From Croceivirga radicis (GTDB lineage Bacteria > Bacteroidota > Bacteroidia > Flavobacteriales > Flavobacteriaceae): a stretch of 64,000 nucleotides of DNA. The notes beneath the pieces were generated by a model that saw only the letters and a program-made list of their open reading frames with translations, had not been told where the DNA came from and made no database searches. The stretch lies in the NCBI RefSeq assembly GCF_002072105.2, contig NZ_MTBC01000004.1, positions 124,001 through 188,000 on the forward strand. Reading direction: 5' to 3'. Positions 57,995 through 60,851 of this stretch are shown piece after piece. The first letter of the stretch is position 1. Each line of letters starts with the position of its first letter. Both the position numbers and the translations under genes were made by a program.

Positions 57995-58006
57995 CCCCCT
58001 TTTTTT
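57976..58006 (+). terminator. Terminator within the 3' end of the carboxylase gene
   Basis: GGGGG-(TG)-CTA pairs with TAGCCCCC (8 bp with a 2-base bulge) and is followed by seven T. The stop codon TAG is inside the right arm; the T-run reaches the stop of the convergent gene. Confidence 0.75.
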
Positions 58007-58283
58007 AACTGTCTAATTCTAGGATTTTCTCTTGATTATCTTCAAGATTTAAGGTCTCTAGTTTTCCCCATTTTTTAAGTAACGGTTCTTCCAATGCTTT
58101 TTCCCTAAATTCATCTGGGGTCATAATTGGAATACCATAAATTACCGGATAATAACGTTTGCATTTGGGGCAAGTCATTAATGCCTCAATTATTTGACCT
58201 TCTTCGTCTTGTAAAAATATCTGTGTTTTTAAATCTGCCTTATCTATAGGGCAACACAATTTATTCAAGAATTCTTTTCTCAT
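58005..58283 (-). CDS. Trm112-like zinc-ribbon protein
   Basis: 92 residues. LCCPIDKADL near residue 10 and MTCPKCKRYYPVIYGIPIM near residue 40 form the four-cysteine-type ribbon of the Trm112/UPF0434 family, with the typical YPVIYGIP(I/V)M ending. Eukaryotic and archaeal Trm112 proteins activate SAM methyltransferases by direct binding. It is the last gene of the TPP-riboswitch operon, whose first gene is a class I methyltransferase, so a partnership is possible (inference). Overlaps the upstream ThiE-like gene as ATGA. Confidence 0.85.
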   Translation of the reverse strand: MRKEFLNKLCCPIDKADLKTQIFLQDEEGQIIEALMTCPKCKRYYPVIYGIPIMTPDEFREKALEEPLLKKWGKLETLNLEDNQEKILELDS

Positions 58284-58912
58284 AATAGTGTACGTATTTT
58301 TAGGGCATATGATTTTGTGGTCGTAGCTATGTCATTAGCTTTCATAATGCCAGAGATTACAGCTATCCCTTGAATAGGATATTGTTTTAGGTTATTAATG
58401 GTTTTATGATTGATGCCGCCAGAAACAAAGAAGGGAAGTTTTGTTATTGCCCTTGCATTCTTTATGGTCTCTAGTGATACCAGTTCACAATCTATAGCAG
58501 ATTGGGAGGGAAAAACGGCACAGAATGATATATAATCTAGGTTATTTGCCACGGCCTTCTTTATGACTTCCAAATCATTGGAACACGTAAGCCCAAATAA
58601 GTAGTTATTCCCAAAATTGTTTTTATTAAAGTTATTTGGAATGGTATCCAAATGAAACCCATCCACCTTAATAAAAGGTTCCAATTCTAAATTTTCGTTT
58701 ATAAGAAGCGGTATTTTATGGTATGAAGTTAGTTCGTATAAACGAGCTACTAAGACCACTTTTTCTTCAACGGAAATACCTGTTGGCCAATTGTTCCATA
58801 TCTGTACTAGGTTGACTCCGTTCTCCAATGCAATTTCTACTTTATCCAGCAATTCCTCTAAAGGGAGTGCAGGGTCCACAACAAGATAAAGTCCTCCTAT
58901 ATCTAACTCCAT
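58280..58912 (-). CDS. Divergent ThiE/TenI-like thiamine phosphate synthase family protein
   Basis: 210 residues, TIM barrel. GGLYLVVDP, VKVDGFHLD-like VDGFHLDTIP, GLTCSNDLEV, LDYISFCAVFPSQSA and FFVSGGINHKTI follow the order of ThiE/TenI motifs. However the ThiE marks are weak: the QxR(E/D)K loop is VQIWNNWP, and the (T/P)xTK region is PSQSAID. It may be a TenI-like thiazole tautomerase or have a new substrate. Control by a TPP riboswitch upstream supports a thiamine-related role. Coupled to both neighbours by overlaps. Confidence 0.75.
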   Translation of the reverse strand: MELDIGGLYLVVDPALPLEELLDKVEIALENGVNLVQIWNNWPTGISVEEKVVLVARLYELTSYHKIPLLINENLELEPFIKVDGFHLDTIPNNFNKNNFGNNYLFGLTCSNDLEVIKKAVANNLDYISFCAVFPSQSAIDCELVSLETIKNARAITKLPFFVSGGINHKTINNLKQYPIQGIAVISGIMKANDIATTTKSYALKIRTLL

Positions 58913-59964
58913 CCGTTTTCCAAAGCTTTAAAATAAGCCTCCCAATAAGGGTCTATACCGTTAAACGTTATGTTGGACCACGTTTGACCTTTTTTTATAC
59001 TACAGGCTTCTCCTGCTTTAGAAAAGTTACCTATCTGTTTGGCATCAATTTTATGTTTGGCCAAATGTTGAACCAAGCTTTCAGCTTTTTCTTGCTTAAC
59101 CATTATTAACATAGCCCCGGTTCCTAAAGAGAATCTATGGTCAATACCAAACAACTCTGTAATTGCCTTTTGGGTAGTACCTAAAGGAATTAATTCATCT
59201 TTAATATCAAAACCGATTCCGCAGGCTTCTGCAACTTCCATAAGGCCACCTACAACACCACCTTCCGTAACATCATGCATGGCATGAAGTTCATCATTGG
59301 GTATAAGTAACTCACGTGTTATAATAGCTTCTTCTACCACCGAAGTTTTGTAAAATTGATCTGCAGCTAATTTTTGGATTTCTGCCCCTATTAAATCACC
59401 AACTTTATTTGGAAAACTAGCTGCTAGAATCGCGGATGAACTGAACGCTGCGCTTTTGGTCACAATAATGGCATCACCTTCTTGTACCCCATCACTTGTT
59501 AAAATTTCATCTTTTGGTGCGGTCAAGAACATAGTTCCCCCTCCGGAGATGGTACTTTGTTGTCCTTCTATTTTACAAGTATGCCCTCCTGTAATGGCAA
59601 TACCTAAACGCTCAGAGAATTCGTGAATGTATTTCCAATATTCCTCAAAATCAGCATTGGACATAGATGCCGGTAAATTTAAAACATACTGTGCGTATTG
59701 CGGTTTAAACCCTGTAGTGGCCATATCATTGGCTAAAAGTTGTACCGATAACCAAGCAGATTTCTTTAACCCCATAGAAGGAATTAAAGACAAAGGATCG
59801 CTACTTGTTGCTAAAGCCATACCGTTACCTATATCTATAACAGCTGTATCCACACCAAACTTAGGACCTTTTATTACGGTTTCTCTCTTAGCTCCCGTTA
59901 GTGGAAAAACCATTTTTTTAAATCCGCTACTGGTTATTTTGCCTAATGGTAAAACTTTACTCAT
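58903..59964 (-). CDS. HypE/PurM-like AIR synthase-related ATPase
   Basis: 353 residues of the PurM/HypE/ThiL/SelD superfamily. KFGVDTAVIDIGNGMALATS corresponds to the metal/ATP GDDaA motif, ANDMATTGFKPQYAQYVL to the ND(I/V)A motif, and MHDVTEGGVVGGLMEVAEAC is typical of HypE-like proteins. It lacks the C-terminal Cys (PRxC) that HypE needs for hydrogenase maturation, and no hyp genes are near. Members of this superfamily phosphorylate or dehydrate with ATP; ThiL is the thiamine-phosphate kinase. In a TPP-controlled operon a kinase-like thiamine role is plausible, but this is inference. Confidence 0.85.
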   Translation of the reverse strand: MSKVLPLGKITSSGFKKMVFPLTGAKRETVIKGPKFGVDTAVIDIGNGMALATSSDPLSLIPSMGLKKSAWLSVQLLANDMATTGFKPQYAQYVLNLPASMSNADFEEYWKYIHEFSERLGIAITGGHTCKIEGQQSTISGGGTMFLTAPKDEILTSDGVQEGDAIIVTKSAAFSSSAILAASFPNKVGDLIGAEIQKLAADQFYKTSVVEEAIITRELLIPNDELHAMHDVTEGGVVGGLMEVAEACGIGFDIKDELIPLGTTQKAITELFGIDHRFSLGTGAMLIMVKQEKAESLVQHLAKHKIDAKQIGNFSKAGEACSIKKGQTWSNITFNGIDPYWEAYFKALENGWS

Positions 59965-60692
59965 TAGTCCACATCATTTAGTTTAACATGCAATCCAAAA
60001 AAATCTCCCACGGGTACGTTCCATTGTTGTACCGGAAACCATTTAGGCAAACCTGTAGTTGTCCAATTAATAGAATAATCCCTGCCCTTTAGGGCTTTAT
60101 CTATAACCGCTTTTAAGGTTTTAGGCGTATAAAAGTTTGCGGTAACATAAAAGTGGTTTCTACCAAACTGTTGTTGCACCCTTCGTCTAATTAACTTGGG
60201 AGTATTTCGATTCATCATACCAAAAACAATTCCATATTTTCCTACCCTTACGGCTTCTCGTATTACTTTAACCGGGTCTTTATAATACTCAAAGGTGGTT
60301 ACAAACGCCAAAACATCAAAAGTGTGATCTTTAAATGGCATATGATGACTATCTGCCATTACCAAGTCGCCCTGAAAACGTTGGGCGGCCTGCCCAAGCA
60401 TAAAGGGTGAAATATCGCCACCGCATGCTTCTATTCCAATTTCTTGCCACCAACGCGTAAATCTAGTAGTTCCACAACCAAATTCTAACAGGGTATTGAT
60501 ACGGTCATCGCTCTTTACCAATGAGGCCAACACCTTTTTCTGCCAAACTTCTGCTCTTTTGTAAGGCCCTTCATAGTATTCTTCGTAAGTATCGGTATAT
60601 TTTCTATTAAAAAACCACTCGTCCCTACCTTGCCATTGTTGCAAATTCTGGGTAACTAATTGAAAGCTTTCTTTTTCTTGTAAATTACTCAT
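59964..60692 (-). CDS. Class I SAM-dependent methyltransferase
   Basis: 242 residues with the Rossmann methyltransferase core: LLEFGCGTTRFTRWW (motif I, SAM Gly loop), GGDISPFMLGQA (acidic motif II) and VMADSHHMPFKDHTFDVLAF (motifs III and IV), with EYYKDPVKVIREAVRV after. This group methylates small molecules as a rule. It is the first gene of the operon under a TPP riboswitch, and its start codon lies next to the switch hairpin. The substrate could be a thiamine-pathway compound, but nothing in the sequence names it. Confidence 0.85.
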   Translation of the reverse strand: MSNLQEKESFQLVTQNLQQWQGRDEWFFNRKYTDTYEEYYEGPYKRAEVWQKKVLASLVKSDDRINTLLEFGCGTTRFTRWWQEIGIEACGGDISPFMLGQAAQRFQGDLVMADSHHMPFKDHTFDVLAFVTTFEYYKDPVKVIREAVRVGKYGIVFGMMNRNTPKLIRRRVQQQFGRNHFYVTANFYTPKTLKAVIDKALKGRDYSINWTTTGLPKWFPVQQWNVPVGDFFGLHVKLNDVD

Positions 60693-60693
60693 A

Positions 60694-60722
60694 TTCAGGT
60701 ATACATTAATTATACACCTGAA
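60694..60722 (-). promoter_or_regulatory. Expression-platform hairpin next to the methyltransferase start codon
   Basis: On the minus strand TTCAGGT (60716-60722) pairs with ACCTGAA (60694-60700), one base before the ATG (60690-60692); inner pairs extend it. The same TTCAGGT can instead pair with ACCTGAA in the TPP aptamer (60792-60798), making two exclusive states. Confidence 0.6.
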
Positions 60723-60761
60723 GCTAGATAAGTAGAATAGGTTCTATGCTGAACTAAGTGT

Positions 60762-60851
60762 CCTTAACTTTCCTACGCTGGTATTATCCAGTTCAGGTTT
60801 ACGGGTATATTCTCAGCACCAATTAGGAGCACCCCGAGCTACAGGCTAAGG
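60762..60851 (-). ncRNA. TPP (thiamine pyrophosphate) riboswitch, THI element
   Basis: On the minus strand the leader reads GGGGTGCT, then GGTGCTGAGAATA and ACCTGAACTGGATAATACCA followed by GCGTAGGAA: the conserved TPP aptamer blocks (CUGAGA and the ACCUGA...GGAUAAUACCAGCGUAGG run). The closing P1 helix is CCTTA / TAAGG at the ends. It should turn the four downstream genes off when thiamine pyrophosphate is plentiful. Confidence 0.93.

Follow-up and report, generated by a model that had tools for sequence, protein, structure and literature searches.

The subject of this analysis is a group of four overlapping genes behind a thiamine pyrophosphate (TPP) riboswitch in Croceivirga radicis (Flavobacteriaceae). 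The group lies within a 64,000-nucleotide stretch of contig NZ_MTBC01000004.1 (assembly GCF_002072105.2, positions 124,001 to 188,000), which was analysed in full and is called the window here. Window coordinates are used throughout, and the features, all on the reverse strand, are listed in the order in which they would be transcribed.

60846-60753, reverse strand: TPP riboswitch aptamer (THI element), the operon leader; RF00059, 73.7 bits, E 1.2e-12, full model 1-105.
60694..60722, reverse strand: 12-bp hairpin, a possible expression platform, one base from the start codon; RNA fold of 60850-60680.
60692-59964, reverse strand: class I S-adenosylmethionine (SAM)-dependent methyltransferase, 242 residues, the first gene; PF08241 (Methyltransf_11), 63.9 bits.
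59964-58903, reverse strand: AIR-synthase-superfamily (HypE/ThiL/SelD-like) protein, 353 residues, called the AIRS protein below; PF00586 (AIRS) and PF02769 (AIRS_C).
58912-58280, reverse strand: ThiE/TenI-like TIM barrel, 210 residues; PF02581 (TMP-TENI), 105.7 bits.
58283-58005, reverse strand: Trm112-like zinc ribbon, 92 residues; PF03966 (Trm112p), 31.6 bits against a cut-off of 22.

Successive reading frames overlap by 1, 10 and 4 bases, and sixty bases separate the aptamer from the methyltransferase gene on the same strand. The aptamer exceeds the RF00059 gathering score of 54.3 bits and is the sole Rfam match at gathering threshold in the window. A first-pass annotation, made from the letters of the window alone, had described this aptamer and these overlaps correctly. 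It had named the four gene families as given above, and all four proteins exceed their curated Pfam cut-offs. It had also remarked that the unit holds no classical TPP-controlled gene, and none is found among the four families.

The unit is conserved well beyond Croceivirga. A profile of the methyltransferase identified 232 relatives in the genome collection; the best 80, from genomes that each represent a separate species, were kept as loci, and the counts below concern these rather than the other 152. All four genes occur in the same order and on the same strand in 76 of the 80, and the remaining four (L025, L030, L043 and L059) are interrupted by contig ends. A lack of conservation of the order had been named beforehand as a finding that would refute the first-pass proposal, and the proposal passed this test. 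With open reading frames (ORFs) called by a longest-frame rule, neighbours overlap or are separated by at most 7 bases in 65/72 methyltransferase–AIRS, 70/75 AIRS–barrel and 51/64 barrel–ribbon pairs. A search of 196 genomes of the window's order with the AIRS protein recovered eight carriers, one being the window's own genome; the gene order is thus also present in seven further genomes of that order, found through a different protein. All eight hold the other three genes, the methyltransferase of L013 being cut by a contig start. The four genes and the TPP aptamer are confirmed as a genuine, conserved unit.

The switch was examined with two covariance models. Model R1 was built from 24 aptamers, 23 from kept loci plus that of the window, and is not independent for those; the window aptamer, which the model includes, scores 82.9 bits. 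R1 places an aptamer in 76/80 kept loci, and in 75/80 the methyltransferase match begins 47-154 nt downstream of it. The aptamer of L027 is 2.4 kb upstream of the operon, and R1 finds none in L043, L048, L058 and L074. An earlier count, by which only about half of the loci were switched (37/80, that of L027 being 2.4 kb upstream), came from a pattern search that was too strict and was set aside. The independent Rfam model RF00059 was run over 50 carrier genomes, namely the eight from the order sample and 42 picked from the 80 loci, mostly isolates. It matches in 47 of them, and near the operon in 46. All but one of these 46 matches exceed the gathering score; the exception is a weaker match roughly 2.4 kb upstream in G201, to which L027 belongs. 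Rows below 45.4 bits were omitted from this proximity count, and none came from a genome thereby left without a switch near the operon. One of the four carriers without an operon-near match, G150, has its operon cut at a contig start. An intact operon with no adjoining TPP switch is seen in L048, L058 and L074 (Neolewinella and Lewinella), which belong to genomes G213, G218 and G228. The first-pass annotation had asked whether a TPP switch always precedes the operon; it does in most loci and does not in these three genomes.

Other leader elements are less uniform. In 12/76 leaders, the stretch from the aptamer to the first gene contains a perfect hairpin followed by a T tail, compared with 0-3 (mean 1.3) in 20 shuffles; the window leader has no such hairpin in that interval. 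The Bacteroidota -7 promoter motif TAnnTTTG occurs near the aptamer start in 45/76 leaders against a shuffled mean of 4.4, and an exact copy is absent from the window leader. The fold of the window leader has an unremarkable z-score of -1.29, which lends the 12-bp hairpin weak support as an expression platform. A simple scan of the window was uninformative, with 11 promoter-like sites against 10.8 expected and 5 terminator-like sites against 2.9.

As riboswitches point to function, and as the genes stand behind a TPP switch in most loci, the unit very likely belongs to thiamine physiology, even with members that look unrelated to it. The methyltransferase and Trm112 families are not known to have a thiamine role.

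The barrel is the member closest to known thiamine enzymes. Its structure model is of high confidence (predicted local distance difference test, pLDDT, 94.9), and Foldseek places the modelled fold nearest thiamin phosphate synthase (1xi3/2tps; TMq 0.85 to 2tps), with TenI at 0.73-0.75. The Pfam score of 105.7 bits and the finding that 37/37 scanned members match the ThiE model TIGR00693 at E <= 0.001 agree with a plain account of the operon. In that account, the barrel has remained a thiamine monophosphate (TMP) synthase and the AIRS protein is an additional ThiL, both serving salvage of hydroxymethylpyrimidine (HMP) or thiazole, and the methyltransferase and ribbon are passengers. Such an arrangement is quite improbable given that the window barrel falls short of the TIGR00693 equivalog cut-off (105.5 versus 145.1 bits), that a canonical ThiL is already present above its cut-off in 50/50 carriers, and that the four genes are never separated in the 76 loci not cut by contig ends. 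The residues of the barrel speak against it further. R59, K61, D112 and K159 are the presumed pyrophosphate/Mg residues of TMP synthase. None is kept in 76/76 barrels (the window and 75 relatives, aligned with the true ThiE of G168), and all four are present in the ThiE of G168. R59 is replaced by W or Y, K61 by N, H or G, D112 mostly by P, and K159 by A, V, S, I or T.

Because these four residues are lost throughout, the barrel is probably not an ordinary ThiE. Q37, H87, T109, C131 and C142 are invariant in 76/76 barrels, and S187 is present in 75; this invariance shows an active site that is maintained, though changed. The GGI and A-x-x-S segments, which presumably form the phosphate end of the fold, are kept. 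A TenI assignment finds no support, as the window barrel reaches 49.3 of the 251 bits required by PRK07695 and a convincing ThiG accompanies the operon in 1/50 carriers. There is a practical consequence: Pfam calls the barrel a thiamine monophosphate synthase, so that its annotation may wrongly credit genomes with the thiamine-joining step.

The AIRS protein is presumably ATP-using, by analogy with its superfamily. Its best curated matches lie far below their cut-offs (TIGR02124, HypE, 73.1 versus 251.6 bits; TIGR01379, ThiL, 61 versus 184.15 bits), and all eight scanned members match the same two models. By profile search, the best solved relative is the HypE structure 2i6r (67.5 bits). The window protein is nevertheless no HypE by score, and it ends in NGWS, without the C-terminal cysteine of HypE. 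It does not reach the curated ThiL score either, and the genome has a separate true ThiL. Residues D39, D56, D80 and D231 are present in at least 97% of 78 aligned sequences. For this and the other alignments, ORFs of unusual length were dropped, leaving 78 AIRS, 76 barrel, 75 methyltransferase and 66 ribbon sequences, the window included.

The subfamily of this AIRS protein is wider than the operon, because its GGHT and H-D-x-T-E motifs recur outside Bacteroidota, in relatives from Haloarcula and Acetoanaerobium and partly (GHT) in one from Halobacterium. On a plasmid of Haloarcula pelagica (L176:5547-7008), a relative that is 31% identical to the window's AIRS protein and a Thiamine_BP gene are arranged head to head. 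Near this relative, a gene is annotated as a thiamine ABC substrate-binding protein. In the records inspected from Halobacterium and Acetoanaerobium, the AIRS relative is not beside a Thiamine_BP gene, and the archaeal and clostridial relatives as a whole stand in mixed contexts.

The methyltransferase is, on sequence identity, the best conserved member of the operon. Loci were ranked by their methyltransferase match, which inflates its conservation among the 80, where 113/242 positions carry one and the same residue in 97% or more of the 75 sequences. The ranking holds also in the order sample drawn by the AIRS protein: identity across the seven other genomes (one partial) is 64-81% for the methyltransferase and 41-54% for the AIRS protein. 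No solved sequence relative of the methyltransferase was found at E 1e-8. When its structure model was searched with Foldseek, both methyltransferase chains of 6f5z, the Haloferax Trm112-methyltransferase complex, were returned at ranks 5 and 10. The best PDB matches of the ribbon by profile are 6zxw_H and 6f5z_C, 6zxw being a Trm11-Trm112 complex. The ribbon passes the curated Trm112 score of PF03966 and misses the stricter Trm112-type model NF038101 (53.2 versus 77 bits). In a 2017 review (PMC5372719), the zinc signature of short archaeal Trm112 proteins is given as [C/D]PX[C/D]X19-36CX2C, and the function of the bacterial Trm112 family is called unknown. The ribbon carries this signature as C11-P-I-D14, 23 residues, and C38-x2-C41. 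Genetic linkage and the fold likeness of the methyltransferase model to 6f5z make the ribbon a probable partner of the methyltransferase.

A methyltransferase–Trm112 pair raises the question of whether the operon handles thiamine compounds at all. It could instead respond to thiamine stress: at low TPP, its products would bypass a TPP-dependent reaction or modify RNA or protein, with the barrel re-used and blind to thiamine compounds. The known targets of Trm112 partners in other systems are tRNA, rRNA or release factors (PMC5372719). The rank of the methyltransferase as the most conserved member, the loss of the TMP-synthase residues in every barrel and the mixed contexts of AIRS relatives outside Bacteroidota all fit such a role. 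It is rather unlikely, however, as a ThiE relative and a ThiL/HypE relative under one TPP switch point to a thiamine-like ligand, as does the Haloarcula AIRS relative beside a Thiamine_BP gene.

The thiamine genes of the carriers set the context in which the operon would act. The window genome is 99.97% complete. ThiC was not found in it, the operon barrel is its sole TMP-TENI protein, and a separate canonical ThiL is present. ThiC is absent from 49/50 carriers, the exception being G168, which also has the one full-length ThiG (367 bits). Short, partial ThiG matches occur in 37 other carriers, with a best single match of 34.4 bits; 31 of these pass the low Pfam cut-off of 23 bits. Formally, therefore, 32/50 carriers pass for ThiG, and the partial matches were discounted because they cover the profile only in part and control genomes match it almost throughout. 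In 45/50 carriers, the operon barrel is the only TMP-TENI protein above the cut-off; G168, G198, G211 and G236 have another, as does G232 solely by summed pieces. The first-pass annotation had asked whether genomes lacking thiE or thiL keep the operon. For thiE, those 45 carriers fit and the other five do not. For thiL, the idea was not borne out: ThiL is above its cut-off in every carrier, and this is itself uninformative, since 154/196 genomes of the order have it too.

These distributions bear on a possible new formation route, in which the four proteins and housekeeping enzymes together would supply TMP, or one of its halves, and stand in for ThiC, ThiG and ThiE in supposed auxotrophs. Carriers mostly have no ThiC, no convincing ThiG and no other ThiE-family protein, yet all 50 keep the TMP-requiring ThiL. 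ThiL retention was considered as proof of TMP formation and rejected on its frequency in the order, where at least 121 of the 163 genomes without ThiC also keep it, so that retention is not diagnostic. The idea of new thiamine formation is further weakened by the thiamine-uptake type genes that carriers keep and by G168, which has both routes. Experiments in PMC12448291 show an Arenibacter isolate to be a B1 auxotroph, its half-saturation being 0.17 nM, and the study reports that its Flavobacteriales auxotrophs have lost the entire cluster. Two other species of Arenibacter (L022 and L082) carry the operon, and this argues against complete prototrophy by way of it. Taken together, this makes a formation route improbable. 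The operon as a simple replacement of ThiC was rejected: ThiC occurs in 33/196 genomes of the order, in 1/8 carriers and 32/188 non-carriers (Fisher p = 1). A contrast of 1/50 carriers with the same 32/188 gives p = 0.005, and it mixes different orders and ignores kinship.

An AIRS_C search of the window genome recovered a 1246-residue PurL-type protein, ThiL and the operon protein, and no separate PurM at E 0.001; PurM of this genome is either divergent or missing.

Uptake genes under TPP control are recurrent in the same genomes. Sixty-nine TPP matches lie away from the operon in the carriers, and 34 were looked at: 26 precede a TonB-receptor-type gene of one cluster, 4 a PnuC-like gene and 4 neither. 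One member of the receptor cluster, together with the window genome's own receptor, was checked by Pfam. In the window genome, a second, weaker TPP match (45.4 bits) precedes this TonB receptor on contig C1. Because of these TPP-switched TonB-receptor and PnuC-like genes, carriers look like importers of thiamine or a similar compound. Upstream of the window genome's receptor lie a PnuC-like transporter and a gene fusing AAA_28 (NadR-like) and DUF4301 domains; this neighbourhood is covered by L008:7202-9670, L008:47-2143 and L167:8454-9086. In L154, L160, L161 and L163, the TPP match is followed by the PnuC-like gene (the L161 copy being PF04973) and then by an acyl-CoA-dehydrogenase-like gene of about 330-360 residues whose thiamine role is not obvious. 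Small proteins starting MSSHHIV are encoded near the switched TonB receptor (L175:6881-7468 and L169:5553-6200, the latter on the reverse strand; cluster c11, also in L153 and L170). A Pfam scan of two copies returned no match, and they are possibly divergent thiamine pyrophosphokinases.

It is proposed, tentatively and with somewhat less than even confidence, that the operon is a self-contained, TPP-repressed Bacteroidota unit that serves thiamine acquisition by salvage or remodelling, in cells mostly unable to make the vitamin. Two points favour salvage or remodelling: the barrel has kept the phosphate end of its fold but not the pyrophosphate end, and the carriers devote genes to uptake. 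Under this proposal, the operon would be expressed when TPP is low, and a thiamine-related compound would probably enter through the TPP-switched TonB receptor of the same genomes. The methyltransferase would work as a heterodimer with the Trm112-like ribbon, and the AIRS protein, like others of its superfamily, would use ATP to activate the substrate. The barrel may handle a phosphorylated thiazole- or thiamine-like intermediate that has no pyrophosphate leaving group. The compound would thereby be salvaged, repaired or remodelled into a form that ThiL or another kinase turns into TPP. The first-pass idea of a thiamine salvage, repair or modification pathway hence gains a conserved, TPP-switched unit as its basis; its chemistry is still conjectural, with a barrel devoid of the TMP-synthase residues.

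Several observations weigh against salvage or remodelling. The reaction and substrate of the operon are predicted from sequence relationships. The methyltransferase model is of middling quality (pLDDT 72.8), and 6f5z is one of 309 methyltransferase Foldseek matches at E <= 0.001; the methyltransferase and its Trm112 protein could equally have an RNA or a protein as their substrate. The Lewinella-type carriers G213, G218 and G228 have the genes and zero RF00059 matches genome-wide. Within the order sample, the operon does not track ThiC loss. Finally, a complete thiS-thiC-thiE-thiG-thiH-thiF cluster accompanies the operon in G168. This cluster encodes ThiS, ThiC, a TenI-like protein, ThiE, ThiG, a ThiH-like radical-SAM/BATS protein and ThiF, and a ThiD-type kinase is encoded nearby; operon and cluster (L171 and L172) are each preceded by their own TPP switch. 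As G168 holds both, the operon is not only for auxotrophs.

The spread of the operon is patchy. The AIRS tree holds 77 of the kept loci, every one of which is recorded as Bacteroidota or Balneolota. The window protein has a long branch and belongs to a clade of 37 rows that also includes Cytophagales, Balneolota and Cryomorphaceae, apart from the rows labelled Flavobacteriaceae, and Algoriphagus rows occur in both clades. This patchiness and mixing suggest transfer, or an old duplication with loss. A search for viral carriage gave 26 pattern matches and zero relatives, and one for plasmid carriage of the methyltransferase gave 10 records, all merely distant methyltransferases at <=35.5% identity. 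Patchy distribution, with one genus in two clades, would also suit an operon that makes a thiamine-derived antivitamin, signal or storage form, or tunes it to the TPP level. A methyltransferase and an ATP-activating enzyme are a common tailoring pair. Switching such a pathway on when TPP is low would run the wrong way for one that consumes thiamine, however, and within 10 kb even the commonest family apart from the four is found in 26/80 loci, a lack of shared neighbours that favours a self-contained unit. The next commonest neighbour families reach 13 and 10 loci, and by eye the commonest look like large generic families. A product of this kind is very doubtful.

A bolder form of the thiamine proposal is an undescribed route, in which the four proteins would start from precursors other than HMP pyrophosphate and thiazole phosphate and from them make, repair or rebuild thiamine or TMP, by way of a Trm112-activated methyltransferase and an ATP-driven AIRS enzyme. 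It is considered unlikely; if true, many Bacteroidota that now count as simple B1 auxotrophs would depend on compounds related to thiamine that are not usually tested. On any of these accounts, the operon is a defined four-gene target for a step of the vitamin B1 economy that is not known, in a phylum with many predicted auxotrophs, and it offers a setting for the bacterial Trm112 family. A description of the four-gene unit was not found in the open-access literature, supplementary tables aside. PMC2211319 reports twelve genes under TPP switches that had no relatives in databases, two of these genes resembling each other; they may or may not be this operon.

Among known systems, the operon is most readily compared with the TPP-riboswitch operons of Bacteroidetes, given as thiSEGCHF-tenI, OMthi and pnuT-tnr3 in PMC5613172. 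It shares with these the phylum and the switch class, and its carriers have the switched TonB receptor and, in 4/34 loci, a PnuC-like gene; in contrast with the operons described there, it is without any classical gene. The archaeal Trm112-methyltransferase holoenzymes (6f5z and 6zxw) are a second point of reference, since the ribbon, by profile, and the methyltransferase, by model, both match chains of 6f5z. Unlike those complexes, the operon pair is bacterial and linked to a TPP switch, and its complex is a predicted one.

The AIRS protein resembles HypE, ThiL, SelD and PurM in its two domains and its conserved acidic residues. It differs in having GGHT where the genome's own ThiL has GGDT, in a conserved C-terminal DPYW, in the missing HypE cysteine and in scores far under each curated cut-off that it matches. 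Similarly, the barrel shares with ThiE and TenI the fold, the GGI motif and the Gln and His of the pocket. It departs from them in its replaced pyrophosphate-end residues and its score below the thiE cut-off, and it has gained two new invariant cysteines and a new Trp (74/76).

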